From: a bacterium GBS-1
GTDB taxonomy: Bacteria > Synergistota > GBS-1
Direction of reading: 5' to 3'
NCBI GenBank assembly: GCA_001443005.1
Contig: LEKQ01000009.1
Location: forward strand, 1-64,000
DNA length: 64,000 nt
Shown in pieces: positions 2,976 through 57,233 of the stretch. The translations under genes were made by a program, and so were the position numbers. Below the pieces are notes generated by a model. The model did not search any database. It was given only the letters and a program-made list of their open reading frames with translations, and was not told the origin of the DNA. Each line of letters starts with the position of its first letter. Position 1 is the first letter of the stretch.

Positions 2976-4082
2976 ATGTCACCATCTAAGGTTTACTTCA
3001 TGGACTTGAGGGCATCGTCAGAAGAGAACCTTTTAAAGAAGTTTAATCGCCTGCTTAAAACTGCTCACCTTGTCAATCTACCGATTTCCGGTAGGACGGT
3101 GGCGATAAAGCTACACTTCGGTGAATTTGGGAACCTGGCCTATATAAGGCACAACTATGTGGCTGAGCTCGTCAGGCTGCTTAAGGAGATGGGAGGTAAG
3201 CCCTTCTTAACCGATACTAACACCCTCTATAAGGGAAGTAGATCCAACGCCATAGATCACCTTGAGACCGCCTTTAAAAACGGCTTTAATCCTATCACTG
3301 TTGGGTGCAACGTGATAATAGCCGATGGATTATGGGGGTTTGATCATAGGAAGATAGAGATAAACTTAAAGCACTTTTCCCATGCCCTTATAGCCTCGGC
3401 TGTAGCTGAGGCCGATGTCTTGATATCGATGAATCACTTTAAGGGGCATGAGCTCACCGGGTTTGGTGGAGCGATAAAGAACGTAGGTATGGGGTGTGCC
3501 TCTCGTGAGGGGAAAATTAAGATGCACACTGTCTCAAAGCCCAAGGTGAATGAGGATAAATGCATCTCCTGCGGTGAGTGCGTTAGGAGCTGCAACTACG
3601 GTGCCATTAAGTTCGGAGTTAACGAAAAGGCTAAAATAAACTACGACCTGTGCGTCGGGTGTGGGCAGTGCATAGTGGTCTGCCCATCCGAAGCTATAGA
3701 TATAGATTGGGATATGAGCGTTGAGGCCTGTGAGCGGATAGTGGAGTATGCCTATGCGGCTTTAAAGGGTAAGCCTGCTTTTCACTTAAACTTCATAACT
3801 GATGTTTCTCCCTTCTGCGATTGCTGGAGCTACAACGATGCTCCCATAGTTCCCAATATAGGGATACTTGCGTCCTTCGACCCCGTGGCCATAGATAGGG
3901 CTTCTGCTGACTTAGTGAATCAGGCTTCGGTTAACCCCTTTGGTCCCCTGGCTGAAAGGAATCCATCTCCCGGGGAGGATAAGTTCACGCTCATTCACCC
4001 TAAGACCAGTTGGAAGGCCATGCTCGATTACGCCGAAAAGATAGGTTTGGGAAGCCAAAGCTACGAGCTCGTTAAGATATGA
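2976..4082 (+). CDS. DUF362 domain protein with two 4Fe-4S ferredoxin motifs
   Basis: A 368-residue protein made of a DUF362 domain interrupted by a bacterial ferredoxin insert. The two cluster motifs are [11 protein letters not shown] (about 196-206) and [11 protein letters not shown] (about 226-236), each with a following Pro or equivalent region. DUF362 pieces include the [18 protein letters not shown] stretch before the clusters. Its biochemical role is unknown; proteins of this type are common in anaerobes and are presumed to carry electrons. It directly follows the DUF59 gene, which could serve its cluster loading. The last 11 bases overlap the end of the convergent chemoreceptor gene. 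Confidence 0.85.
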
Positions 4083-5772
4083 GCTTTTTGACCTTCCTTA
4101 TTATATCGTAGCGTTCATCCTTCGCTTCTATGAATCCTTGTATACCCTTCGGTTGCTTGAAGGATAGCAAAGCCTCCTTAAACCTCTCTATGAAGTCGTA
4201 AGGGAGGCTCTTAAGTAGGACTATGGCGTCTTTAGGTATATCCTTCACGGTGTTAAGTATAACTATGTCGCTTAAGTCTACCCCTTGGGAGACCATCTTC
4301 TCCACGGCTTCGTTATAGGTTGCTCCTGCATCGACCTCTCCTGAGAGAACCGCCCTTATCACGTTTTCATGGTTTCCCAAGAACAAAACCTCCTTGAAGT
4401 CTTTGTCAGGGTTAATTCCCTCTTGAAGCAGGGAGTATTTGGCGAAGAGGTATCCTGATGCGCTCTTTGGATCTACGAAGCCGAAGCGCTTTCCTTTAAG
4501 ATCCTTTAGGCTCCTTATGTTGGTCTTTTTCGAGGTTATTATATATCCGTCATAGCTCGCTCTTCCGTTAACTATTGGGGTTGCTATGGGGGTGATGTTA
4601 TCCAGTGTCTCCTTAGCAGAAACATAGGCGAAGGGAGAAAACCAGCCTCCATCCACTATCTCCTCCTTAAGGGCCTGTATCAGGGCGTCGTAGCTGTGAA
4701 CTATTACCATTCTCGGTTTGTAGCCTACCTTCTCGCAGGCCTGCTTTATTATCGGATAATACATCTCTCTTATGGTTTTCGGATTCATGAATGGATTGAC
4801 GCCAAAGAGGATCTCTTTCTCAGACTTTAAGCTTGATGCCTCCCTTTGTATATCATATAGAATTTGATTTAATGAGGATATCATCTTTAGGACTTCCTGA
4901 TTCTTCTCCTCCTGAGTCTTTACCACCTTTCCTATGCTCTTGGAGAGGTCGCTTGTCTCTCTTGAGGCCTCGAAGATCTCTCTCGATGAATCGTTGACGT
5001 TATCCGTTACTTTGAGCATCTCCTCAGAGAGGTTATAGAGGGTATCGGTCACCTCAAACACGCTTTCGAAGCTCGATGTGGTTGTGGAGATGAAGCCCAT
5101 AAACTCCTCGAAGGAGCCCTTTAACTTAGCAAACTCCTCGAAGGATTTACTGGTGATCTCAAAGGACTCCTTTATCGTACTTACTATCCCCTTTATCGTC
5201 TTCTCTATCTCCGCGTTGGCATCTCTCGTCCTTTCAGATAGCTTCCTTATCTCCTGAGATACAACTGCGAACCCCTTTCCCTTCTCCCCTGCTTTGACGG
5301 CCTCTATGGAGGCGTTTAGCGAAAGAAGGTTTATCTGCTTGGCAAACAGGTTCAGTGTTTTAGCTATTTCCGAAACCGATCCAGACTGCTTTATCAAGTT
5401 TTCGTTTATTTCTAAGACTTTCTTGAATATCTTCTCTTGCTCCTGTAGGGAGCTTCGCGCTGAAGATATGGAGGCGCTTAAGCTCTCACACGTTTTCTCA
5501 AGAGCTTTCGTAATATCTTTAGCTTTGTATATCTGTTCCTTTAACTTGTCTGATATCTCTACGAGTTTCTTTGAAGTTTCAACTATGGATGATGCGCTTT
5601 CAAAGCTTTTCATGCTTGTTTCCTCTACCTTTAAGAAGCTCTGCGTTATATCCTCAAAGACCTTTATGTTCTCACCTAACAGCCACGTGAGCTGAAAGAC
5701 CTCGAAGAACATGTTTTCGATAGTCTCAAGCAGCTTAGATGCGTTTTCTACCTTCACCCTCTTTCTCTCCAA
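4072..5772 (-). CDS. Soluble methyl-accepting chemotaxis protein fused to a PhnD-like substrate-binding domain
   Basis: Residues 1 to about 310 form a chemoreceptor signalling domain; its tip ([20 protein letters not shown], then [16 protein letters not shown]) would bind CheA/CheW. No signal peptide or membrane helix is visible, so it should be cytoplasmic. From about residue 319 (EILFGVNPF) to 540 it resembles the phosphate/phosphonate ABC binding protein PhnD ([54 protein letters not shown]). That domain normally sits outside the membrane, so here it would sample an internal ligand. Start is TTG 5772 behind GGGGGGTGAG. No che genes are adjacent. Confidence 0.85.
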
Positions 5773-10470: not shown

Positions 10471-10500
10471 TTGACAGAAATAGATCGATAGGTATATAAT
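10471..10500 (+). promoter_or_regulatory. Perfect-consensus promoter of the small secreted protein gene
   Basis: TTGACA (10471-10476), 18-base spacer, TATAAT (10495-10500). The predicted leader to the start at 10619 is about 110 bases and contains a short stem (AGGGC/GCCCT, about 10579-10598). Confidence 0.7.
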
Positions 10501-10618
10501 TCGATTAAGTTTTATAAATAGACGTATTATAATGAGATGAATTTTCGTTTTGTCTTTTCTTTTTGGTCAACTTAAATTAGGGCGCTTTCTTTGGCCCTTA
10601 AGAGGGGGGTAGATTGAG

Positions 10619-11047
10619 GTGAGGATGTTATTTGTATTAGCTTTTGTGGTTAGTCTGCTCCTTGCGGTTTCGGGGAGTCCTTTGGCGAAGGTGGGTGAGT
10701 GGCGGGCTTACGCTTACGGGGACGCTCTCCTTGAGGGTGAATCTTGGGAGCTTCATCTTCATGGTGAACTTGCGGCTTCCGGAGAGTATTACGTTTTTTA
10801 CGGTTCAGCTGGGTTCTTCGGGGATCAGCTTCCTCCCAAGGAGATAAGGAGGGCTGGGCCCTTTAAGGCGGAACTTGGAAAGGGTTACGTTTGCGTCTTT
10901 AAAGGAGCCGGTGTCCAGTGGAGTGAGCTTCAAGCGGGGAGCTTTGTACCCCGTGAGGGTAAGGCGGTGATCTACGTGAGAAATGAAAGATCCTTTCTTG
11001 ATAGGTTATTTTTGGGGGTGATGGTCACCGATCGATCCTCTCCTTGA
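10619..11047 (+). CDS. Small secreted protein of unknown function
   Basis: I do not recognise this 142-residue protein. It begins with a clear signal peptide (MRMLFVLAFVVSLLLAVSG, cleavage likely near SPLA), so the mature part of about 115 residues is exported. The mature region is rich in Gly, Tyr, Phe and beta-type segments (SGEYYVFYGSAGFFG; GKAVIYVRNERS), suggesting a compact beta domain. The start is GTG 10619 or ATG 10625; a GGGGGGT stretch lies upstream. It has its own consensus promoter and is followed within 30 bases by the promoter of the polysaccharide cluster, so it is probably monocistronic. Confidence 0.65.
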   Translation: MRMLFVLAFVVSLLLAVSGSPLAKVGEWRAYAYGDALLEGESWELHLHGELAASGEYYVFYGSAGFFGDQLPPKEIRRAGPFKAELGKGYVCVFKGAGVQWSELQAGSFVPREGKAVIYVRNERSFLDRLFLGVMVTDRSSP

Positions 11048-11072
11048 GGTCAGTTTTTTAAACGAAGGATCC

Positions 11073-11101
11073 TTGTCTTAACATCTCTTCTTTGTTATAA
11101 T
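11073..11101 (+). promoter_or_regulatory. Promoter of the surface-polysaccharide cluster
   Basis: TTGTCT (11073-11078), 17-base spacer, TATAAT (11096-11101), about 40 bases before the GTG at 11144. Confidence 0.65.
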
Positions 11102-11143
11102 TGCCTAAAGTTTAGGTGCTTTAGCTTTTAGGGGGTGTCTTAA

Positions 11144-12142
11144 GTGTATCTGGAGTGCCCGATCTGTCGGACGAGCGTCAAGGAGGATGATTTTAAGGAG
11201 CTTTACATCTCTCCCTTAAACGGGCAAGACTACAGGCGCTATGAGTGTCCAAGCTGCTTAACCTTCTGGTGGGAGCCCCTAAGAATGATTCCTGAGATGT
11301 ACGAGGGGGAGGTCTTTGAAAATTATGAAGCCTTTCACGTAGGGATGAGGTTTGAACCTGAGAATAACCATCGGGCATTTTTCGAGAATTTTCCCAAGGG
11401 TGTTAGGGGGAGGCTCCTTGATGTGGGGTGCGGCGATGGCCTCTTCCTTCTGCACGCTCGGGATCTGGGTTTTGATGTTTGGGGCGTGGATTTCGATGAA
11501 AGGAGCGTTAGCGCTGCAAGGAAACGCCTTGGTCTTGAGAGCCTTTACGCTATGACCTTTGAGGATTTCTATCGTTTTGCCATCGATCGAGGGTTGAACT
11601 TTGACGTCATAACTTTCTTCGAGGTGCTTGAGCATCAGGATAGGCCGAGGGAGTTTCTCGCCATGGTTAAGGGGCTTTTAAGGGAGGGGGGGTATATAGC
11701 AGGAAGCGTGCCAAACAGGGAAAGTCTCTTCGTTAAAAAGTTTCATAGAGATCCTAAGTGTTATATTGATTATCCTCCACATCACTTCCTAAGGTTTTCG
11801 CAGGCTTCTTTAAGAAGGGCTCTTGAGCTAAGCGGCTTTCGCGATCTTGAGGTCGTGCAACTGGACGTAGATCTTAAGGATCTCTTTTGGTTAACGGAGA
11901 GGGTGGTCTTCGGTGACCTCACGAGGCTTAAAAAGAGACTTTGGAGGGCGGTCGTCGGGGATGAGGGGTTAGCCATCCTGACGGTTAACGATATCAAGCG
12001 TTCGGTTAGCGGAGGCTTGGGAGTTCGCTTCCTTAAACTTTTAAGGCTTTTAAGGAACGCCGTAGTTTTACCTTTTGCGATACCCTATATTGGAAAGCTT
12101 AAGGGAAACGGCCTTAGCCTTTATTTTCAGGGGAGGGTTTAG
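11144..12142 (+). CDS. Zinc-ribbon class I SAM-dependent methyltransferase
   Basis: A 332-residue methyltransferase. The N-terminus carries two Cys pairs (CPIC at 5-8, CPSC at 35-38), a zinc-ribbon-like element. The Rossmann core follows with LLDVGCGDGLFLL (SAM-binding motif I), WGVDFDERSV (motif II) and DVITFFEVLEHQDRPREFL. Such proteins commonly methylate sugars in polysaccharide or O-antigen clusters, which fits its position as first gene before two glycosyltransferases and galE. GTG 11144 follows TAGGGGGTG. The acceptor is unknown; C-methylation of a nucleotide sugar is possible but not shown. Confidence 0.8.
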   Translation: MYLECPICRTSVKEDDFKELYISPLNGQDYRRYECPSCLTFWWEPLRMIPEMYEGEVFENYEAFHVGMRFEPENNHRAFFENFPKGVRGRLLDVGCGDGLFLLHARDLGFDVWGVDFDERSVSAARKRLGLESLYAMTFEDFYRFAIDRGLNFDVITFFEVLEHQDRPREFLAMVKGLLREGGYIAGSVPNRESLFVKKFHRDPKCYIDYPPHHFLRFSQASLRRALELSGFRDLEVVQLDVDLKDLFWLTERVVFGDLTRLKKRLWRAVVGDEGLAILTVNDIKRSVSGGLGVRFLKLLRLLRNAVVLPFAIPYIGKLKGNGLSLYFQGRV

Positions 12143-12143
12143 G

Positions 12144-13415
12144 GTGAAGCCTTCAAAGAGCGTTCTTTTTATGATTAATAATCTTGCTAAAGGTGGCGCT
12201 GAGAGGGTCGTTGAGAGACTGAGTAAAGGCTTTAAGGGTTATAGAAAGCTCGTCGTTACCCTTGAAAATGTCGTGGATTATCGCCCTGATGCTGAGGTGG
12301 TTTGCATAAACTCTCCCCCCGCTTTGAGCCTTCTTAGGAAGCTTGTTAATGCGCCCTTGAGGTACTTTAAGTTTCTTGCGGTTAAGAGGCGCTTTGCCCC
12401 CGACTACTCCATAAGCTTACTTGAGCCTTTAAACTTCTATAACCTGATAACGAGGGGTAAGGATAAGGTGATACTTAGCTTTCAGTCCTGCTATACTCAG
12501 GAATTTCTTAAAAGCCCCTTTTTGGGTAAGGGGATAACGAGGGGTTTTCTTAAGCTCGTTTATAAGATCTTGATAAGGGCTTTATACGGTCGGGCGGACG
12601 CTTTGGTTTCCTGCTCCTGGGGTGTGGCGAGGGACCTCGTTGAAAACTTCAAGCTCAGGGAGGATAAGCTCAAGGTCATATACAATCCTCTTATTCTTGA
12701 CGAGATAGGGGTTATGTCCTGTGAGCCTTTGGGGGAGCATGAGGGGATCTTTGAGGGTCCTGTTATCGTGAACGTTGGGAGGCTTAGTAAAGCGAAGGGG
12801 CAGTGGTATCTTCTTAGGGTTTTTAGGGAGCTTAAGATGGCTTTCCCTGATCTTAGGCTTCTTATTTTGGGTGAGGGTGAACTTAAGGGTTATTTGGTCA
12901 GTCTTTCTCGTGCTTTGGGTTTAAGGACCTTTCTTTGGGATGAGGGTAGTAGCGTTTCTGGTGGTTATGATGTTTACTTTTTGGGTTTTCAGAGGAACCC
13001 TTTTAAGTTTATGGTGAGGTCTAAGCTTTTTGCGTTTCCTTCTTTGTGGGAGGGTTTACCGAACGTTTTGATTGAGGCTATGGCTTGTGGTCTTCCTGTT
13101 ATTTCGGCTGATTGTAGGAGTGGTCCGAGGGAGATATTGGCGCCGGGCACGGACTTAGGTAGGCAGGCTGAGGGTGTTGAGTTTGCGCCCTATGGTGTTT
13201 TGATGCCTCCTTTTGATGGGGAGTTTAGGGGTTCTGAGGAGCCTTTGGATTTTAGGGAGAGGATGTGGGTTGAGGTTTTGGGTAGGTTGTTGATGGATGA
13301 GGCTTTAAGGAGGGGGTATTCTGAGAGGGGCAGGTTGAGGGCCAAGGATTTTGACATCGATAGTGTAGTTAGGCAGTGGGAGGAGCTTTTTGCATCGTTG
13401 GATGGGGAGCGTTAA
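12144..13415 (+). CDS. GT4-type glycosyltransferase (GT-B fold), first of a domain-sharing pair
   Basis: Cytoplasmic or membrane-associated glycosyltransferase expected to transfer a sugar from a nucleotide donor to a glycan or lipid acceptor. N-terminal half (INNLAKGGAERVVERL) is the acceptor-side Rossmann domain; the C-terminal donor domain starts at KVIYNPLIL and includes VNVGRLSKAKGQW and EGLPNVLIEAMACG with the two conserved Glu. GTG 12144 is chosen because GGGGAGGG lies about 8 bases upstream; the longer frame from 12075 lies inside the previous gene. From 12672 onward the DNA is nearly identical to the next gene: one base differs within the coding part, giving Ala versus Glu. The shared part looks T-rich at third positions compared with flanking genes. 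Confidence 0.87.
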   Translation: MKPSKSVLFMINNLAKGGAERVVERLSKGFKGYRKLVVTLENVVDYRPDAEVVCINSPPALSLLRKLVNAPLRYFKFLAVKRRFAPDYSISLLEPLNFYNLITRGKDKVILSFQSCYTQEFLKSPFLGKGITRGFLKLVYKILIRALYGRADALVSCSWGVARDLVENFKLREDKLKVIYNPLILDEIGVMSCEPLGEHEGIFEGPVIVNVGRLSKAKGQWYLLRVFRELKMAFPDLRLLILGEGELKGYLVSLSRALGLRTFLWDEGSSVSGGYDVYFLGFQRNPFKFMVRSKLFAFPSLWEGLPNVLIEAMACGLPVISADCRSGPREILAPGTDLGRQAEGVEFAPYGVLMPPFDGEFRGSEEPLDFRERMWVEVLGRLLMDEALRRGYSERGRLRAKDFDIDSVVRQWEELFASLDGER

Positions 13416-13487
13416 GATGCTTTACTTTTTGATAAACTCCCTTGGTGGCGGAGGTGCCGAGAGGGTTTCACTTAGACTTCTTTCTAT
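12672..13487 (+). repeat. Tandem duplicated block, copy 1 (glycosyltransferase donor domain plus next gene start)
   Basis: 816 bases that recur at 13891-14706 with a 1219-base offset. By eye only three positions differ: 12793 (C versus A), 13476 (A versus G) and 13483 (T versus C). The block begins exactly at the linker before the C-terminal GT-B domain, covers that domain and stop codon, and runs 71 bases into the next gene. Confidence 0.95.
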
Positions 13488-14634
13488 CCTTAACCCTGAG
13501 AGGGTCTTCCTTCTTGAGAGGGATGTCAGCTACGCCGTGGATAGGGGTAGGCTTGAGTTTCTTTCCGATCACACCATTAAAACGAGCCCTATCCTTAAGA
13601 CCCTCTTTATACCCCTTTACGCTCTAAGCCTTTCAAGGAGGATTAGCGAGGGGAGTGTTGTGCTTTCCTTTCTTGAGAGGGCTAACTTTGTGAACGTTGT
13701 GGCTCGCTTCCTTAAGGGGCATAGGGCGGTGATATCTGTGCATATGGATCCCTTAGCCGGGCATCAAGGTTTAAGGAGGCTTAACCTCACTTTAATTAGG
13801 TTACTTTATCCTAGGGCTGATCGCGTGGTTGCTGTTTCTGAGGGGGTGAGGTTGAGCCTTCTTAAGCTGGGCGTCCCGGAGGCGAAAACTAAGGTCATAT
13901 ACAATCCTCTTATTCTTGACGAGATAGGGGTTATGTCCTGTGAGCCTTTGGGGGAGCATGAGGGGATCTTTGAGGGTCCTGTTATCGTGAACGTTGGGAG
14001 GCTTAGTAAAGAGAAGGGGCAGTGGTATCTTCTTAGGGTTTTTAGGGAGCTTAAGATGGCTTTCCCTGATCTTAGGCTTCTTATTTTGGGTGAGGGTGAA
14101 CTTAAGGGTTATTTGGTCAGTCTTTCTCGTGCTTTGGGTTTAAGGACCTTTCTTTGGGATGAGGGTAGTAGCGTTTCTGGTGGTTATGATGTTTACTTTT
14201 TGGGTTTTCAGAGGAACCCTTTTAAGTTTATGGTGAGGTCTAAGCTTTTTGCGTTTCCTTCTTTGTGGGAGGGTTTACCGAACGTTTTGATTGAGGCTAT
14301 GGCTTGTGGTCTTCCTGTTATTTCGGCTGATTGTAGGAGTGGTCCGAGGGAGATATTGGCGCCGGGCACGGACTTAGGTAGGCAGGCTGAGGGTGTTGAG
14401 TTTGCGCCCTATGGTGTTTTGATGCCTCCTTTTGATGGGGAGTTTAGGGGTTCTGAGGAGCCTTTGGATTTTAGGGAGAGGATGTGGGTTGAGGTTTTGG
14501 GTAGGTTGTTGATGGATGAGGCTTTAAGGAGGGGGTATTCTGAGAGGGGCAGGTTGAGGGCCAAGGATTTTGACATCGATAGTGTAGTTAGGCAGTGGGA
14601 GGAGCTTTTTGCATCGTTGGATGGGGAGCGTTAA
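13417..14634 (+). CDS. GT4-type glycosyltransferase, second of the domain-sharing pair
   Basis: A 405-residue GT-B glycosyltransferase. The N-terminal domain (MLYFLINSLGGGGAERVSL) is only distantly similar to that of the preceding gene, while the C-terminal donor domain from residue 159 (KVIYNPLIL) onward is the same sequence apart from one residue. This implies two enzymes that use the same nucleotide sugar on different acceptors, or a very recent copy. ATG 13417 is chosen for the GGGGAG at 13404-13409; it lies 2 bases past the previous stop. Directly after its own stop the same N-terminal start is repeated as a truncated remnant. Confidence 0.87.
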   Translation: MLYFLINSLGGGGAERVSLRLLSILNPERVFLLERDVSYAVDRGRLEFLSDHTIKTSPILKTLFIPLYALSLSRRISEGSVVLSFLERANFVNVVARFLKGHRAVISVHMDPLAGHQGLRRLNLTLIRLLYPRADRVVAVSEGVRLSLLKLGVPEAKTKVIYNPLILDEIGVMSCEPLGEHEGIFEGPVIVNVGRLSKEKGQWYLLRVFRELKMAFPDLRLLILGEGELKGYLVSLSRALGLRTFLWDEGSSVSGGYDVYFLGFQRNPFKFMVRSKLFAFPSLWEGLPNVLIEAMACGLPVISADCRSGPREILAPGTDLGRQAEGVEFAPYGVLMPPFDGEFRGSEEPLDFRERMWVEVLGRLLMDEALRRGYSERGRLRAKDFDIDSVVRQWEELFASLDGER

Positions 14635-14706
14635 GATGCTTTACTTTTTGATAAACTCCCTTGGTGGCGGAGGTGCCGAGAGGGTTTCACTTAGGCTTCT
14701 TCCTAT
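13891..14706 (+). repeat. Tandem duplicated block, copy 2
   Basis: Second copy of the 12672-13487 block. It ends 71 bases into what would have been a third glycosyltransferase gene, after which homology stops just before galE. Confidence 0.95.
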
Positions 14707-14719
14707 TGAGGAAGTTTAA
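14636..14719 (+). pseudogene. Truncated remnant of a third glycosyltransferase gene
   Basis: ATG 14636 repeats the start of the gene at 13417 with two base changes, giving MLYFLINSLGGGGAERVSLR, then leaves the homology after about 23 codons and stops at TAA 14717-14719. It marks the downstream breakpoint of the tandem duplication. No function is expected. Confidence 0.85.
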
Positions 14720-14742
14720 AGAGGGATTTGGAGGATAGGCCT

Positions 14743-15738
14743 ATGGGAGTGATACTTATAACCGGAGGCTGCGGTTATATAGGGGCGCATGTGAACAAGG
14801 AGCTTAACAGGAGAGGGTATCGCACGCTTGTTTTTGATAACCTCTCCCGCGGGCACAGGGAGTTCGCTAAGTGGGGTGAGTTCGTTCTGGGAGACCTTCT
14901 TGATATTAAGCATCTTAGGCTCACCTTCAGACGCTATTCCATAGATGCGGTTATGCATTTCGCTGCGCTCACCTACGTAGACGAGTCGGTTAAAGACCCC
15001 CAAGCTTATTACCTTAATAACTTCAAAGGTACGCTTAATCTTCTTCAGGTTATGCTTGAAAGCGGCGTTAATCGATTTATATTTTCGTCTACCTGCGCGA
15101 TTTACGGAGTCCCCTTAGAGATTCCCATCACCGAGGAGCATCCTAAGTCCCCCATAAACCCCTATGGCAAGAGCAAGCTCATGGTTGAGGAGATCCTTAA
15201 GGACTATTCATCTGCCTATGGGCTGAGGTACGTTTCCTTAAGATACTTTAACGCGGCTGGTGCTGATCCTGAGTGTGAGATAGGTGAGTGGCAGGATCCC
15301 CCCGTGCGTCTTATCCCCAGTCTCCTTGATGTGGTTTACCATGAGGATAAGGTCTTTAGGATATTCGGGACGGACTATCCTACTAAGGATGGCACTTGCG
15401 TTAGGGACTTCATTCACGTTACTGATCTGGCTGAAGCGCACATATTGGCGCTTGAGTACCTGCTTAAGGGGGGCGAAAGCGAGGTCTTTAACCTTGGGAA
15501 CGGGAAGGGCTTCTCCGTTAGGGAAGTGATCGAAGTGGTTGAGATGGTTACGGGAAGAAAGGTAAGGGTCGTTGAGGACGTTAGAAGGCCGGGAGACCCT
15601 CCGGTTCTCGTTGGAAGCAGCGAAAAGGCGAGGGGGATTCTTGGGTGGAGCCCTAAATATAAGGATATCTCGGTTATTATTAAAACCGCCTGGGATTGGC
15701 ATAGAAGACTTTATGGAGAGCTTAAGAAGGATACTTGA
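14743..15738 (+). CDS. galE: UDP-glucose 4-epimerase
   Basis: Extended short-chain dehydrogenase that interconverts UDP-glucose and UDP-galactose (or the N-acetyl forms), supplying sugar donors for the neighbouring glycosyltransferases. The NAD-binding GGCGYIG is at the N-terminus. The catalytic Ser/Tyr/Lys are seen in FSSTCAIYG and NPYGKSK, with SLRYFNAAGA following. 331 residues is normal. ATG 14743 is chosen over the in-frame TTG 14728 because GGAGGA lies 7 bases upstream of the ATG. Last gene of the cluster; the next promoter overlaps its stop codon. Confidence 0.93.
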   Translation: MGVILITGGCGYIGAHVNKELNRRGYRTLVFDNLSRGHREFAKWGEFVLGDLLDIKHLRLTFRRYSIDAVMHFAALTYVDESVKDPQAYYLNNFKGTLNLLQVMLESGVNRFIFSSTCAIYGVPLEIPITEEHPKSPINPYGKSKLMVEEILKDYSSAYGLRYVSLRYFNAAGADPECEIGEWQDPPVRLIPSLLDVVYHEDKVFRIFGTDYPTKDGTCVRDFIHVTDLAEAHILALEYLLKGGESEVFNLGNGKGFSVREVIEVVEMVTGRKVRVVEDVRRPGDPPVLVGSSEKARGILGWSPKYKDISVIIKTAWDWHRRLYGELKKDT

Positions 15739-15764
15739 CAGCGGAAGCGCTTATATGATATATT
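15735..15764 (+). promoter_or_regulatory. Promoter of the LysW operon leader
   Basis: TTGACA (15735-15740, overlapping the galE stop), 18-base spacer, TATATT (15759-15764). Transcription would start near 15771, giving about 240 bases of leader before the first biosynthetic gene. Confidence 0.7.
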
Positions 15765-15797
15765 AGGTTCGAAATTGTATAGGAGGCGATTCCTGAA

Positions 15798-15911
15798 GTG
15801 AATAGATTAGGAACCCATCTTCCCAAGATATGCTTGAAGCGGAACAAGCAATTCAAGAAGCCTAAGCCGAGAGGCTGGGAAGGTGGGTTTTTTGCTTCAG
15901 CCTTAGGCTGA
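15798..15911 (+). CDS. Candidate Lys/Arg-rich leader peptide ahead of the LysW operon
   Basis: GTG 15798 opens a 37-codon frame ending TGA 15909-15911. AGGAGG lies at 15781-15786, 11 bases upstream, a slightly long spacing. Codons 3 to 25 encode nine Lys or Arg residues (R3, K10, K14, R15, K17, K20, K21, K23, R25), for example CLKRNKQFKKPKPR. The frame spans the 5' arms of overlapping hairpins that precede terminators. A leader peptide rich in the pathway's end products is what ribosome-stalling attenuation requires. A conserved small protein or untranslated RNA are the alternatives. Confidence 0.45.
   Translation: MNRLGTHLPKICLKRNKQFKKPKPRGWEGGFFASALG
15812..15889 (+). promoter_or_regulatory. 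Attenuator-like RNA structure (regions 1 and 2) with alternative pairing to the terminator
   Basis: AACCCATCTTCCCA (15812-15825, region 1) pairs with TGGGAAGGTGGGTT (15876-15889, region 2) with one G-U, enclosing two small hairpins (CTTGAA/TTCAAG and GCCT/AGGC), and is followed by TTTT. Region 2 (15876-15885) is also perfectly complementary to CACCTTCCCA at 15947-15956 (region 3), which itself forms the 5' part of the terminator at 15936-15973. Pairing 1:2 permits the terminator, 2:3 prevents it. A second 8-base match, AGCCTAAG (15859-15866) with CTTAGGCT (15902-15909), could oppose the middle terminator. No L-box or T-box motif is present. Confidence 0.65.
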
Positions 15912-15922
15912 AGCTGATTTTT
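15894..15922 (+). terminator. Terminator-like hairpin in the LysW leader (proximal)
   Basis: GCTTCAGCC (15894-15902), loop TTA, GGCTGAAGC (15906-15914), a perfect 9-bp stem, then TGATTTTT. It overlaps the end of the leader ORF. Confidence 0.7.
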
Positions 15923-15935
15923 AGGGGTTGTTTTT

Positions 15936-15973
15936 AAAGCCCCGCTCACCTTCCCAAAGGTGGGCGGGGCTTT
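15936..15973 (+). terminator. Terminator-like hairpin in the LysW leader (distal, regions 3 and 4)
   Basis: AAAGCCCCGCTCACC (15936-15950) pairs with GGTGGGCGGGGCTTT (15959-15973), 15 bp with one wobble. The tail after it (AACATTTTAAA) is only moderately T-rich. Confidence 0.7.
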
Positions 15974-16009
15974 AACATTTTAAACTCTTTCTTGAGGAGG
16001 GTGATTAAG

Positions 16010-16048
16010 TTGGGGAAGCGCAAACTTGGATGGTTTACTCTAGGTTAA
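16010..16048 (+). other. Mini-ORF with strong SD overlapping the start of the first ligase gene
   Basis: AGGAGGGTGATTAAG is followed by TTG 16010, which encodes [12 protein letters not shown] and stops at TAA 16046-16048, one frame away from the ligase gene. The residues RKLG look like the missing first beta strand of the ligase, so this is either the original start separated by a one-base deletion, or a coupling or regulatory ORF. Confidence 0.45.
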
Positions 16049-16866
16049 GGGTTGAGGAGAAGATGCTGATTGAGGCCTTCGAGAAGGAGGGGGTCTCCTT
16101 AAACCTCATCCACGAGGATAGCATTTTGCTCCCTCTTTTTAACGATGGAGAGTTTCCCATAAGGCCGCCGGCTGTGGTCTTAAACCGCGTGATATCTGCC
16201 TCGCATGCCTTCTATGTCTCTCGTGCCCTTGAAAGCAAGGGCATAAAGGTTGTAAGCTCCTCTAAAGCGATAGCTAACTGCTTAGATAAGGCTTTGACGA
16301 CCCTTCTTCTCGTCGAAAGCGGCGTTCCCGTTCCTCGCACCTATCTTGCATTTTCGCCGGATAAGGCGTTGGAGGCCATAGAGAGGGTGGGTTATCCTGC
16401 GGTGGTCAAGCCGGTCAACGGCTCTTGGGGGAGGCTTCTTGCTAAGGTCAACGATAGGGATGCTGCCGAAGCGGTCCTGGAGCATAAGTATACCCTTGGA
16501 AACGGGCTTCAGAAGATATTTTACGTTCAAGAATACGTCAATAAGCCTGGTAGGGATATAAGGAGCTTCGTCGTGGGGCGCAGGTGTATAGCTGCAATAT
16601 ACAGGGTTTCTCCTCACTGGATAACCAATACGGCTCGTGGAGGAGAGGCTCGCAACTGTCCCTTGACCCCCGAGCTTGTCGAGCTCTCGGAGAGGTCAGC
16701 GCGCGCGGTGGATGGCGAGATAGTTGCCATTGACCTCTTTGAGACTCCATCGGGGGAGCTTATTGTTAACGAGATAAATCACTCCCCTGAGTTCAGGAAT
16801 AGCATAGCTCCTACGGGGGTGGATATTCCGGGGGAGATAGTGAGGTATATAAAAAGCTTTCTTTAA
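16030..16866 (+). CDS. lysX: LysX-type ATP-grasp ligase (LysW--aminoadipate or LysW--glutamate ligase), first copy
   Basis: ATP-grasp enzyme that attaches alpha-aminoadipate (or glutamate) to the C-terminal Glu of the carrier LysW. Family signatures are [46 protein letters not shown] and the metal-binding [10 protein letters not shown] near the C-terminus. The open frame starts at ATG 16030 ([11 protein letters not shown]), a few residues short of the usual N-terminus, and the only strong SD serves TTG 16010 in another frame. Inserting one base near CTTGGATGG would give a standard N-terminus (RKLG-MVYSR). The gene may thus carry a frameshift, a sequencing error, or a true internal start. Substrate choice between Lys and Arg branches is not decided. 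Confidence 0.85.
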
Positions 16867-16881
16867 TGGGGGTGAATCTTT

Positions 16882-17052
16882 ATGATGGTTAAGTCTCGTT
16901 GTCCTGAATGTGATGCGCTTCTTGAACTGGAGGATCCTGAGATAGGGGAGATAGTTATATGCCCTGATTGCGGCGTTGAGCTTGAGGTCGTGAGCCTTAA
17001 CCCTCTGGAGCTCGAGGTCGCTCCCGAGGTTGAGGAAGATTGGGGGGAGTAG
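16882..17052 (+). CDS. lysW: LysW amino-group carrier protein
   Basis: A 56-residue acidic carrier protein whose C-terminal glutamate is joined to the amino group of aminoadipate or glutamate so that later enzymes act on a protein-bound intermediate. Diagnostic features are the zinc-binding pairs CPEC (7-10) and CPDC (27-30) and the C-terminal EDWGE. The strong GGGGGTGA precedes the ATG at 16882 (or the next codon, also ATG). It lies between two LysX-type ligases, and its last bases may overlap the start of the second. It defines the operon as a LysW-dependent pathway. Confidence 0.96.
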   Translation: MMVKSRCPECDALLELEDPEIGEIVICPDCGVELEVVSLNPLELEVAPEVEEDWGE

Positions 17053-17905
17053 CCTTGGGACGGATGGGAAGAAGGTTCTTTTGGTCTATACGATACTGAG
17101 GGATGAGGAGAGGATAATAGATAGCGCTTTAACTAAGAGAGGTATAAAGGTGGAAAAGGTCTTGGGGAACAAAACCTTATGGGAGTTGGGAAGCAGGATA
17201 GGTGAATTTAGTTTAGCCATAAATAGGACTTTAAGCGCTTCTCAAGCTACTTATATCTCCTTTCTGCTCGAGGGACAGGGAATTAGGGTTATAAACCCTT
17301 TTAGGACGTTGATAATATGCAATGACAAGGCGCTAACTACGGAGCTTTTGGCGAAGGAGGGGCTTCCTGTCCCTCGCACCTATCTTGCCTTTTCGCCAGA
17401 GAAGGCCTTTGAGGCTTTGGATAGGGTTGGTTATCCCGCGGTGGTCAAGCCGGTTAACGGCTCTTGGGGGAGGCTTCTTGCCAAGGTCAACGATAGGGAT
17501 ACCGCTGAGGCGATAATAAGCTACAGGTGGAATCTCGGAGGGATTCATCAGAAGGCCTTTTATGTTCAGGAGTACGTTAACAAGCCCGGCAGGGATATAA
17601 GGGTTCTGGTTATAGGTGGAAAGGTTAGATATGCGGTTTACAGGAACTCCTCGCACTGGGTTACCAACACCGCTCGTGGAGCTAGGGCCACCCCTTGTCC
17701 GATAAGCGAGGAGATAAAGAGGATATGTGAAAGGGTTGCATCGATAGTTGGTGGGGACTTCATCGCGCTTGATCTCTTCGAGAGCGAGAGGGGGGTATTG
17801 GTGAACGAGGTAAACTCCACGCCTGAGTTTGCGAGATCCTCTAGGGATGTAGGTGTAGATGTTGGAAAGCTCATCGCCGACTTCGTGGAGGAGGTGCTTT
17901 CGTGA
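17030..17905 (+). CDS. LysX/ArgX-type ATP-grasp ligase, second copy
   Basis: Paralogue of the gene at 16030 with the same ATP-grasp signatures: [46 protein letters not shown] and VNEVNSTPEF. Having two ligases around one LysW suggests separate charging with aminoadipate (lysine branch) and glutamate (arginine branch), as known in Sulfolobus; which is which cannot be read here. The natural N-terminus is KKVLLVYTILRDEER, but no good start is close: TTG 17030 overlaps lysW by 23 bases and has a weak SD, TTG 17081 would begin at MVYTILR, while GGGGGGAG points to TTG 17055 or ATG 17064 in another frame. Its stop overlaps the next start by 4 bases. Confidence 0.85.
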   Translation: MRKIGGSSLGTDGKKVLLVYTILRDEERIIDSALTKRGIKVEKVLGNKTLWELGSRIGEFSLAINRTLSASQATYISFLLEGQGIRVINPFRTLIICNDKALTTELLAKEGLPVPRTYLAFSPEKAFEALDRVGYPAVVKPVNGSWGRLLAKVNDRDTAEAIISYRWNLGGIHQKAFYVQEYVNKPGRDIRVLVIGGKVRYAVYRNSSHWVTNTARGARATPCPISEEIKRICERVASIVGGDFIALDLFESERGVLVNEVNSTPEFARSSRDVGVDVGKLIADFVEEVLS

Positions 17906-33122: not shown

Positions 33123-33155
33123 AAAAAAGGGGCACCTTAAGGTGCCCCTTTTTTT
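33123..33155. terminator. Bidirectional terminator between malic enzyme and chemoreceptor genes
   Basis: GGGGCACC TTAA GGTGCCCC hairpin flanked by A-run (33123-33128) and T-run (33149-33155), working on both strands for the convergent genes. Confidence 0.93.
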
Positions 33156-35157
33156 ATACCTTGAACCTCTTTACAAGCTTCAGGAAGTTTTCCGCTATCG
33201 AAGCGAGCTCTTGAGAGGCTGCGCTTACGCCTTGGCTTGAGTCTGCCTGTTTCCTTAGGGCCTTGTTCATCTCCTCTAAGCGCTCGGCTATCGTCGTTAC
33301 CGATCTCGTTGCCATATCCATGGCGCTACTTGCCTCCTCCGTGGACGCGCTCTGCTCCTCAGCTATGGCTGCCAAGTTCTCTATCTGTGAGCTCATCCCC
33401 TCTATCTCCTTAAGTATGCTTAAGAGCATGTCCCTGACTTTTGTGGAGCTTTCCATGGCGGTTTCTATGACCCTGGCTGTTTCGCTTGTTGCCAGACTCG
33501 CTCGCTCAGCTCCTTGCTGTATCTGGCCAAGTATCTGAGCTATCTTGCTTGTGGCCGATTTGCTTCCCTCAGCGAGCTTTCTTATCTCATCGGCAACTAC
33601 GGCGAAACCGCGCCCTGCCTCTCCAGCGCGCGCCGCTTCTATCGCTGCGTTTAGGGCTAACAAGTTGGTCTGCTCCGCTATCGAGCTTATGGTTTCAACT
33701 ATCTCACCGATGTTCTTGGCCATCTCCGCGAGCTCCCTTACCGCCTTTTCTGTATCCCTCGCCTTCTCCTTCGTCTGATTTATAACATCCGCTATAAGGT
33801 TTAATCCTTTCTCCCCTTCTTTCGCGCTCTTGTTAATCTCCCCTGCCCTTTCCGTTAAGTCCTGAGCGGATTTAGCTAAGTTCTGGGCGCTTGACGCTAT
33901 CTCCTCCGTGCTCGCCGTAACCTCCTCTATGGATGCTGAGGCATCTTGAGCGGATTTGTTTATCTCCTCCATCTGAGCTGAGAGTTCCTCGCTTGTGGCG
34001 CTTATTTCTTCCGCGTTCTGAGCTAAGCTCTCCACTGAGGAGCTTATCTGGTTTGCCCCCTCGAGTATAGCTTTCGCCAATTCCCACAAGTTCTCCTTCG
34101 CGCGCTCTAAAGCTTGAGCTATTTGAGCAACCTCATCTCTTCCAGATGCCTTGAAGCTAACCGTGAGATCTCCCTCGCCGAAGGAGGCCACAACTTGAGC
34201 TAGACCCCTTATGGGCTTCGATATCGATGAGCTAACGAATAGTATTATCAGCGCGATTACGCCTGTCATTATAGAGAGCATAAGTATAAGGGTATTGGTT
34301 ATGCTCTTAACCCTTCCGGTTATCTCTACTTCAGGAAGCTCTACGAGGAAAGCCCACCCCTTGGCATTTTGTATGGGTGAGTAAAATATAAGACTTACCG
34401 AGCCATCGGGAAGCGTTATCCGGGCCATGCCCGATTCTCCTCCGAGGATGCTCCTTGAGACCTCTTGAAGCCCCTTGAAGCCCGCCTTTGAAGCCTCCTT
34501 TATGTTTAGCTTCATTAAAAGCTCCTGTTTTGGGTGAGCCAAAACCGTTCCGCTTGAGTCAACTACCCAGGCAAAACCGTTCTTTCCGACCCTTACATCT
34601 TGAGCTATTCTGCTTATGGCTTCAAGCGTTATGGTTAGACCTAAAACCCCCAGGGTTTTCCCTTCCTTATCTTTCACGGCTGCTGCGATCACGAAGACGG
34701 GTCTATTGGTAGCCCTTGAAATCAAGGCGTCGCTTATGACTATCTCCTTTCCCTCTTGCATTATCTCGATGAAGTACTTCCTATCTTTTACGTTGACTAC
34801 GTTTCCTAAGGTAGTTGGTGCGCTTCCATCGGGGTAAGCTATGAAGGCCATCTCGATGTGGGGTTTATCTTTAAGTTGGAAAGGGAAGTACTCCTTCATC
34901 AGGTAATCCCAGCTTCCGCTCTTTAAGGCGTCTATGACTGCGTTGGTTTTAGCAAACGCCTTAACTTCCCTTATCATCCCTGATAGCCACTCATCTAGGA
35001 TGTCTGAGGCTTTTTGAGATATCTCTCCCAGATTTTCCCCCATCATGGAGGTTAAGGATGAGTTTAACCTGTTGAAGATTACGAATTCTATCACAACGGA
35101 AATGGCTATCAGAGGAACAAGTAGGAAGATAAGCATCTTACTTTTTAAACTTTTCAC
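33154..35157 (-). CDS. Methyl-accepting chemotaxis protein with periplasmic double Cache domain
   Basis: Transmembrane chemoreceptor, 667 residues: TM1 (about 8-30), a periplasmic dCache ligand domain to about 280 ([46 protein letters not shown]-like [25 protein letters not shown]), TM2 (about 290-310), a HAMP region ([20 protein letters not shown]), then the signalling hairpin with tip [20 protein letters not shown] and [18 protein letters not shown]. dCache domains of this type often bind amino acids or organic acids. GTG 35157 follows AAAAGGGGGGG. No che genes nearby. Confidence 0.93.
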
Positions 35158-51983: not shown

Positions 51984-53627
51984 TTGAGGCTAAAAGGTTT
52001 TTTAATACTGATTTTGGTAGGTCTTGTTCTGGAATTTTTAGTTGCATCTTATTGCTTAATGCGAGGGTCTTTAAGGGAAACTGGCTTTTTTATGGTTCTG
52101 GTCGCATCGGGCTTGGCGTTGGGTCTTTTGGGGGCTTTGGGGGGAGCGAGGGAGGTTATCTCCTTAGAGCAGATCGGGGAGTGCGCGAGGCTGTTTGGTA
52201 AGGGGGATATCGTCGGAGCGGATCTTTATTTAACGAGGAGGCGTGGAGTCCCATCGAAAGCGCGCGATTTGATGCTTCCCGCTTTAGATGCCTTCTTTAG
52301 GCTCATTGGTAGCGTTCAAAGAAGCTCAGAGGAGCTCAATCACTTCATAGCTCTTCTTGAGGATGGGATAGGGGTTCACAGGAAGGGGTTGAGAGAGATA
52401 TCTCATGCTATGAATGAGGTTGCTTCCGCTGCTGATGAGGAATCAGGGGTAGCTCAGAGGGTGGCCAACGGTATAGAGGCCCTAAACTCTTTAGCTCAGG
52501 AGATAGTGGGTGTGGCTTCGAAGGTTATGGGGTTAGCTCAGGATGCGGGTGTTTTGGCCTCTCAAGCTTTGGATAAGGTAGATTCTCTTCTAGGCGATAT
52601 CAGGCAGGTTGCATCCTCTAATGATGAAACGGCAGATAAAGTTTTAAAGCTTTCGGAGGAGATGGAGCAGATAAATCGCTTCGTTGAGACCCTGACGGAG
52701 ATAGCTGAGCAAACCAATTTGCTAGCCCTGAACGCTGCGATAGAGGCAGCACGTGCAGGAGAATCTGGACGTGGTTTTGCTGTTGTGGCTGAGGAGATAA
52801 GGAAGCTGGCTAATAGGTCTACCTCTTCTGCGCTGGAGATTGCGAACCTGGTGAAAGGCATAAGGGAGAGGGGTAAGGAGGCCTCTAACGATGTCGTTAA
52901 GGGGGCCGTCCTGGTTCGTGAAAATGTCAGGAAGGGAGAAGAAGTGGTATCAGCTATCAGGAGTTTCTCCGATGCCTTTTTAGAGGTTAGGGATTCTCTA
53001 GCCTTAATAAGCGATAGGGTGAAAGAACAGGTCGTTAAGATAGATGAGATAAGTCAGGAGGCGGGAAGGCTCGCCGCAGCCTCTCAGGAGACGGCAGCCA
53101 GTGTAGAGGAGATAACAGCTTCCGTGAGCGAGCAAAGCAGCGCAACCGAGGAGATGGAAAGATACGTAAAGAGGCTGGTTGATATGGCTACGCGCTTCAG
53201 GAATATAGCTGATCAATATACAAGGGGAACGTGGAGTGAAGATGCTAAGGAGCGCATGGCTAAGGAGAGCTTAGGTACACTTTTAAAGCTGGCTGAACTG
53301 CCTGAATTTAAAAGCTTGGATCTTAAGCGGCTTGTTCCCATATTTGATAACGCCTTCAAGGGGCATCCTTACATAAAGACGCCCCTTCTCGTTGGCTTAG
53401 ATGGAAAGATAATACACGCTGACTCTAGGCTCGATAGAAGCGTAGATTGGTCCTTTAGGTCTTGGTTTAAGGGAGCCTTGAAGGGTAGCCCCTTCGTTGG
53501 TGATACCTACGTTAGCCTTGGGACAAACAGGCCGGCCTTCGCGATTTCCTGCCCCGTTAAAAACGATAGGGGAGAGATAGTTGCGGTTTTGGCCGCTAAC
53601 GTGGATGATAGAGGAGTAGGAGCTTAA
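51984..53627 (+). CDS. Methyl-accepting chemotaxis protein with a C-terminal Cache-like domain
   Basis: A 547-residue chemoreceptor. Two hydrophobic helices (about 4-24 and 33-53) form an N-terminal membrane hairpin with almost no periplasmic part. The signalling domain has tip [20 protein letters not shown] and [18 protein letters not shown]. After about residue 430 a domain with [40 protein letters not shown] and [20 protein letters not shown] follows, the pattern of a Cache/PDC sensor. That fold is usually periplasmic and N-terminal; here it is cytoplasmic. TTG 51984 follows AAAGGAGG. Confidence 0.87.
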
Positions 53628-55259: not shown

Positions 55260-57233
55260 GTGAAGTCGCTTAAGCTTAAATACCTGCCCATAATTTTAAC
55301 TATAGTGCTTATTGTTGGGTTTACGGTTATTTATGTTTTAAATCAGAGGTTTTCACAGCGTATCTTTGATCAGTGGACTAAGAAGGTGCAGGAGTTAATA
55401 GCTTTTAATATTGGCAACTTAACTCGCACGACCAAGATTTTGGGCATAGTTGTTGATGACGTTCTAGTCGATAGGACTGCAATTGAGTTGTTTAAGAATA
55501 AGAACAGAGAGGGGCTTTATAACCATCTCAAAGAGGTCTTTGAAATGAACAAGAAGCGCGGTGTAAATCAGATGCACTTTATAAATGCTGATTTAACATC
55601 TTTTCTAAGATTTCACGCGCCGGGAAAGTACGGTGATAGCATCGCCTTCAGAAAGATGCTTAGAAGGGTTAAGGAGACGAAACAACCCTTGGAGGGTGTA
55701 GAGCCAGGCATGGCTGGTCTTGTTTTTCGTTCGATAGCTCCGATAATCGTCGATGGAGAGTTTATTGGCATCATTGAGGCAGGAATCATATATAATGAAG
55801 CATTCCTAAAAGAGTTGCGAAATTATCTTGAAGGCCCTGTTGAGCTTGCTGTTTTGTTCGATGAGAAAGGTAAACTGGAAAAGCCAAGGATTTTTAAGAG
55901 CGATGAGGGTTTTAACGTTATAGGGGAGGTCAACTTCGATAGATTTCTATCCGATGAGAACCACTACGAACTTAAAGGTGGACACCTATACGTATCGAGT
56001 CACTTTAAAGATATAGATAATCAGACGGTTGCGGTTTTGCTTTCTAAGGTTCCACTTACTAAGATCGTCGAATACGAGAAAAGGTCTGGTACCATCAGTA
56101 TCGCGGTTCAGATAGCGGTTGTTACAATTTTAGTTACTTTGGCATTGGTTCTGCTTAGGGGTGTTAACAAACAGATCTCTGCTGCCCAGGAGGGTATCTC
56201 TAGGTTTGAGAGAGGGGATCTGACGGTTAGGTTTGATGTAACTGTAGCGAACGAGGTGGGAGATCTCGTCAGGTCGCTATCGCGAGCGGTTGAGAAGCTT
56301 AAGGAAGTGTTTTCCAATGTTCAAAGTGCGCTTGTCTCAGTAAATCAATCTGTGGACACGTATACGACGGTTATTGATAATGTTAAGGATGTTGTTGAGA
56401 GGGCGAACTCTGCTGTTGGGCACGTTGTTTCGATGGCGGAAAGTGTTTCCGCTGCGGTGGAGGAGACGAACTCTGGTATAGAAGAGATTGCGGCAACAGC
56501 TCAGGATGTTGCTCAGAGCGCTCAGGAGATCTCCTCGCTTACAAGCTCGACCTTTGCCGAGATCAACAGCTCTTTGGGGCTTGTTAGGGATCTAGTTGAG
56601 AAGATAGAAGAGACGATAAAGTCGTCAGAGCGCTCCATGAAGGTGACTAACTCCCTCGTTAGCTACTCTGCGCAGATACAGAGTATAGTTGATGCGATAA
56701 ATTCGATAGCGGAGCAGACCAACTTGTTAGCCCTAAACGCAGCGATAGAAGCGGCGCGCGCTGGGGAAGCGGGGAGAGGATTCGCAGTCGTTGCTGATGA
56801 GATAAGAAAGTTGGCGGAGCAAAGCAGGAGTTCTACGAATGATATACGGAACATATTAAAGAGCATAAAGGATGGAGTGGAGCAAGTGGACGAGATGGTT
56901 AAGCAGAACGCAAGCGTCTTAAATATGTCGAGGGAGGGCGTTAAAAGAACGCAGGAGGCCTTTGAGAGGATTTACAAGCTTGCGGGGGAAATCAACTCTA
57001 AGGCGGAGTCCCTTGCGGCGGCGAGTCAAGAGCAGAGCGCGTCGACGGAGGAGATGAGTTCGGCTATGCAAAATGTGACGAATAGCGTGGGTGAGATAGT
57101 GCGGGAAATGAACGAATTGGTGGAGAATATGAGAAACCTGTCGAAGGTGATACCAGAACTTGAAAAAGCGAACAATGCGGTGGAAAGTGCTATATCGAAG
57201 TTTGAAGAGACAATGAGGTTCTTTAAGTTATAG
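55260..57233 (+). CDS. Methyl-accepting chemotaxis protein with periplasmic Cache_3-type sensor
   Basis: A 657-residue transmembrane chemoreceptor. TM1 about 9-28; periplasmic domain with [40 protein letters not shown] and [20 protein letters not shown], the pattern of double Cache type 3 sensors; TM2 about 280-300; HAMP ([20 protein letters not shown]); then the signalling hairpin with tip [20 protein letters not shown] and [21 protein letters not shown] 55260 follows AAAGGGGGGG. Transcribed alone with its own promoter and terminator. Ligand unknown. Confidence 0.92.

Follow-up and report, generated by a model that had tools for sequence, protein, structure and literature searches.

A tandem glycosyltransferase gene pair of a GBS-1 bacterium shares a near-identical C-terminal domain with a G+T-rich coding strand

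How do two adjacent glycosyltransferase genes come to carry practically the same C-terminal domain behind clearly diverged N-terminal domains? The question is raised by a 64,000-nucleotide stretch of a contig from a GBS-1 bacterium of the Synergistota (hereafter the window; own genome, G000), in which an initial annotation had described an 816-base repeat at an offset of 1219 bases with three differences. Direct sequence comparison of the two block copies (table 1) reproduced this repeat, with mismatches at 12793/14012 (C/A, copy 1/copy 2), 13476/14695 (A/G), and 13483/14702 (T/C). The first of these is the sole coding difference within the shared domain, giving Ala in copy 1 and Glu in copy 2 (GRLSKAKG/GRLSKEKG), and sequence identity drops to background on either side of both copies. 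The 5′ edge of the block coincides in frame with the first base of the Lys codon of the KVIYNP linker in both genes, as had been proposed for the border between the two domains. Coding sequence makes up 744 of the 816 bases (248 codons including the stop), and the copied tail noted beyond the stop of gene 1 was also recovered, although it measures 72 bases and not 71. A DNA search found these two as the only near-identical copies of the block in the whole genome, the next best matches being 74% (G002, a genome of a sister genus in the same family) and 72% (contig C2 of the own genome). No long inverted repeats were found at the block borders, neither G4 motifs nor the Chi octamer occur in the N or C domains, an Rfam search of positions 10500–16100 returned no match, and no further open reading frame of at least 80 amino acids lies within the C domain as a hidden overlapping gene. 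Nor do the copies resemble the template/variable repeat pair of a diversity-generating retroelement, since they differ at three sites only, of which one is coding (C/A), and not at many adenines.

Both proteins exceed the Pfam cut-offs for Glyco_transf_4 (PF13439) in the N-terminal half and Glycos_transf_1 (PF00534) in the C-terminal half, and both keep the EX7E motif (EGLPNVLIE). A confident AlphaFold2 model of the hybrid protein encoded by gene 2 (mean pLDDT 89, pTM 0.87) exhibits the two-Rossmann GT-B fold and, in fold comparison, matches the GT4 structures 6eji, 4xso, and 8dqd. Two Rossmann domains, the EX7E motif, the KVIYNP linker, and the PF13439/PF00534 combination are thus common to the gene pair and GT4 GT-B enzymes, the nearest of which are the PglJ/PglH-type proteins and RfaB by profile and WlaC/PglH (6eji), HepE (4xso), and PglA (8dqd) by fold. 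The best profile matches were PglJ-type, but the PglJ equivalog (GalNAc transferase), for which NCBIfam NF050063 demands at least 500 bits, was rejected at 155.6 and 167.3 bits, and no named equivalog was obtained. In GT-B enzymes the acceptor is bound by the N domain and the donor by the C domain, and we therefore infer two intact enzymes that would use the same nucleotide-sugar donor on different acceptors. Published GT-B chimeras, in which acceptor choice lies with the N domain and donor choice with the C domain, show that engineered swaps yield active enzymes (PMC10937113); unlike those, the present case is a natural hybrid in one adjacent gene pair, with predicted activity. Only GT4 membership and the neighboring galE suggest a surface-glycan product. 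Another tandem pair lies farther downstream in the window, where two LysX-type ATP-grasp ligase genes (16030–16866 and 17030–17905, both above the TIGR02144 cut-off) share a 144-base stretch of 88% identity and stand ahead of a lysine/arginine-type operon.

Table 1. Features of the glycosyltransferase (GT) locus, in window coordinates
Feature	Position	Strand	Remark
SAM-dependent methyltransferase gene, upstream	11144–12142	+	Orthologue, 47% identical, adjoins the single GT in G002
Glycosyltransferase gene 1 (N1 and shared C), GT4	12075–13415	+	Listed open reading frame; homologous part from about 12147
N1, acceptor-side domain	12147–12671	+	Shares 42% identity with the N domain of the GT found at this locus in G002
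C (donor) domain, copy 1, G+T-rich	12672–13415	+	Third-position G+T 0.87, GC skew 0.46
Block copy 1: C domain (12672–13415) and 72 bases into gene 2	12672–13487	+	Sequence comparison
Glycosyltransferase gene 2 (N2 and shared C)	13417–14634	+	Pfam; EX7E intact; AlphaFold2 model
N2 domain, fast-diverged	13417–13890	+	No relatives beyond roughly 35% identity among 151 genomes
Block copy 2	13891–14706	+	Sequence comparison
27-codon stub of gene 2 start (MLYFLINSLGGGGAERVSLRLLPIEEV*), putative recombination remnant	14636–14719	+	Matches gene 2 start
galE, UDP-glucose 4-epimerase	14728–15738	+	In G002 follows UDP-sugar dehydrogenase after the single GT

The two halves of these genes have contrasting histories. 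C1 and C2 are 99.6% identical while N1 and N2 share about 37%, and the other pairs within the family show 29–42% in the N and 59–65% in the C domain, which indicates that the C half was homogenized or moved recently. This agrees with the initial annotation on the recency of the copying and on one C-terminal donor domain joined to two different N domains; its description of the latter as unrelated-looking did not hold, since both match Glyco_transf_4, can be aligned at that 37%, and belong to a single clade of all four family genes in the N-domain tree, with moderate support (94/90). At E ≤ 1e-40 the shared C domain occurs, among 188 genomes of the phylum, only in the own genome (three genes) and in G002 (one). 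The third own gene (own3), on contig C2, has a C domain 65% identical to that of the pair and not duplicated, and the C-domain tree groups it with the G002 gene (80/94), gene 1 not being placed with G002. The G002 locus reads methyltransferase–GT–UDP-sugar dehydrogenase–galE, with a single GT that is closest to N1 in its N domain (N-tree support 89/83) and that carries Ala at the one coding difference of the block, like copy 1; the equivalent locus of a further genome, G003, is interrupted by contig ends. Gene-converted or recombination-made tandem pairs are recognized by a segment of near identity that has diverged sequence around it and is missing from the corresponding locus of a relative, as is the case here with G002, and we regard it as well supported that the pair is either a hybrid made by recombination or the outcome of recent homogenization of tandem paralogs. 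Because the single G002 gene resembles gene 1 and shares the Ala of copy 1 at the site of the Ala/Glu difference, the block probably originated from copy 1, which would keep the ancestral residue; the truncated stub of the gene 2 start standing after copy 2 indicates, in addition, a tract extending from C1 into the gene behind it. Both observations support the direction originally suggested, from copy 1 to copy 2.

A scheme accommodating these observations would begin with gene 1 (N1-C) as the ancestral family gene and gene 2 as its tandem paralog, whose N domain diverged or was replaced; N2 may even have been imported from elsewhere, given its long branch. Recombination at the conserved KVIYNP linker would then have joined N2 to the C domain and stop codon of gene 1 and to 72 bases from the start of the next gene. 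The event could have been an unequal crossover converting N1-C1-N2-C2 into N1-C1-N2-C1-N2-C2, after which the third gene was deleted except for the 27-codon stub, or a single template-switch or gene-conversion tract; the two routes both fit, and the order of steps is presumptive. A comparable architecture is found in the Campylobacter jejuni paralogs Tlp2, Tlp3, and Tlp4, whose C-terminal domains are identical while the N-terminal domains average about 30% identity, a pattern ascribed to domain duplication (PMC9769880), those proteins being chemoreceptors and the present ones glycosyltransferases.

Two other explanations of the repeat have to be weighed against recombination at the linker. The contig ends overlap by 77 bases, as is typical of a short-read k-mer assembler, and such assemblers can err in repeats longer than 700 bases, so that a single C domain might have been doubled in the contig. 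We give this very little probability: three fixed differences separate the copies, the reading frame is intact in both genes, the sequence in which the stub terminates ahead of galE is unique, and, N2 being unique with the C block on either side of it, the assembly graph would permit only the present order or a separate circle. Since the unique N2 joins C at its end and the tail of the C block at its start, an artefact appears unlikely from the sequence itself. The initial annotation had, furthermore, seen in the locus a recent or ongoing mechanism of domain swapping that would vary surface glycans. A programmed system of this sort would paste the C cassette repeatedly behind varied N domains, in the manner of phase or antigenic variation. 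An in-frame junction at the interdomain linker would suit such a system, and so would the composition of the C domain, whose coding-strand GC skew of 0.46 and 40 G-runs per kb resemble those of the recombining vls cassettes of Borrelia (skew 0.52 vs. 0.18 for the chromosome, PMC11499132; 27 G-runs per kb of coding strand, PMC3585125), RecA filaments being more stable on TGG-type, GT-rich DNA (PMC3763553). The likeness extends to own3, which is unskewed just as the non-varying vlsH is without the combined features (PMC11499132). It does not extend to the genomic organization, as no silent-cassette array with one expression site is seen here; AT skew is strongly negative, and G-runs, in excess in G000, are not raised in G002. 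The genome holds two near-identical copies, both in intact genes, and one distant paralog only; silent cassettes were not found, and the borders are devoid of long inverted repeats. The search for other N domains fused to this C domain, which the initial annotation had proposed, yielded none among the 188 phylum genomes, leaving a single case, and for that reason an ongoing swap system is unsupported and, in our estimation, quite improbable.

A second feature, absent from the initial annotation, concerns the C domain. Its coding strand is extremely G+T-rich, the third-position G+T content of 0.87 being at the top of about 360 own genes sampled, and the gene pair ranks first and second for this measure among 362 open reading frames in 462 kb of the own genome (the compositional background consisting of these sampled stretches and 421 kb of G002). 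Third-position GC skew reaches 0.66 and AT skew −0.81, compared with extremes of 0.36 and −0.60 elsewhere in the window, the latter in N2. In 100-codon windows the C domain attains 0.91–0.92, against 0.607 ± 0.054 (2265 windows, maximum 0.87) in genes of the leading type, a class defined heuristically by third-position G+T above 0.52. The best change-point falls at codon 191 (178–216) in gene 1, whose linker is at 177, and at codon 174 (126–201) in gene 2, whose linker is at 160. The single-copy gene of G002 (L030 2933–4177, minus strand) displays the same jump at codon 176, with the linker at 174, in a weaker form (likelihood gain 9.7, the shuffles reaching at most 9.2), and its C domain outranks every other window in the 374 open reading frames sampled there. 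Compared with the expectation for the same protein in leading-strand codons, total G+T is higher by 8.7 standard deviations in G000 and by 7.1 in G002. The third-position GC of the C domain follows its host in each case (0.49 in G000, 0.32 in G002), with the G+T excess in both. A skew common to all homologs was rejected, own3 and homologs from other families being normal, as was a general G+T gradient toward the 3′ ends of genes, none being present in the sampled genes. The 72-base tail copied along with the block is of ordinary composition without visible skew, which implies that the signature predates the duplication; this and the single-copy state of the skewed G002 gene indicate that the present duplication did not create it. 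This strand asymmetry, confined to one domain and present in two genera, is the more surprising part of the locus.

The base changes themselves help to choose among mutation, selection, and import. At fourfold sites, T occupies 70 of 100 positions in the C domain and 38 of 76 in N1, C occupies 8 of 100 and 23 of 76, and G stays level; the A-to-G shift is visible at twofold sites. Measured against own3, a comparator and not a proven ancestor, so that directions of change are presumed, codon positions 1 and 2 changed toward G/T 66 times and away 30 times in the C domain (61 and 62 in N1), with C-to-T at 21 vs. 9 and A-to-G at 28 vs. 12; in G002 the excess is weaker (59 vs. 40) and A-to-G is balanced. 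Because the bias reaches these amino-acid-changing positions, mutation is favored. Selection, whether through codon choice for translation or for DNA friendly to RecA or G-quadruplexes, could explain the enrichment of TGG-type triplets (z 3.8) and G-runs (z 3.1) over the same protein with leading-strand codons in the own genome, yet it appears unlikely in view of the bias at positions 1 and 2, of the rise of T at fourfold sites where G hardly changes or falls, and of G-runs that are not raised in G002 (z 0.9). That the C domain was imported from a strongly skewed donor and has not yet ameliorated would account for the sharp compositional border at the domain junction; we nevertheless consider it very unlikely, since protein identity between the C domains of G000 and G002 is just 65% and both lineages, each at its own GC level, retain the G+T excess, which amelioration should have erased. 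The sequence pattern suggests instead a segment-limited, strand-asymmetric mutational pressure on the C-domain DNA (coding-strand C to T and A to G) older than the duplication, such as deamination would be expected to exert on a coding strand that is exposed. Our preferred account, held with good confidence, is that recombination at the linker would have made the N1-C/N2-C hybrid pair and that, separately, this old pressure acted on the C-domain DNA before the copy was made.

A link between skew and recombination is suggestive only. Conceivably, though we hold this doubtful, the domain-sized segment has long been exposed repeatedly as single-stranded DNA in at least two genera, through recombination among paralogs or R-loops, leaving a domain-bounded deamination footprint at synonymous and amino-acid-changing sites alike; domain cassettes that recombine would then be recognizable by this footprint, a notion also hinted at by chemoreceptor signaling domains in the same genomes. 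After the glycosyltransferase pair, the next most skewed own gene encodes a chemoreceptor (contig C5, 136923–138998; L041 16923–18998) whose signaling domain reaches 0.85, and a second, unassembled copy of it is probable because matches of 97% and 99% occur at two contig ends (L155 1–157; L044 1–77). Its orthologs are high in third-position G+T in G002 and G003 (0.78) but not in G001 (0.61), and most other chemoreceptors are not high. In G002, another chemoreceptor gene (L165, G002:C2:70566–71711, minus strand) exhibits a jump from about 0.6 to 0.83 limited to the signaling domain, with no near-identical copy in that genome. A rule that every recent duplicate is skewed did not hold, most of the other repeats and contig-end overlaps being ordinary, and in G002 the glycosyltransferase and this C2 chemoreceptor domain show the skew in the absence of any near-identical copy. 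The 64-kb window itself holds four chemoreceptor genes (4072–5772, 33154–35157, 51984–53627, and 55260–57233).

The locus provides a clean natural case of a GT-B enzyme with recombined donor and acceptor domains. Should the compositional signature stem from recombination or from exposure of a strand, a single genome sequence could reveal recombining protein domains without population data.
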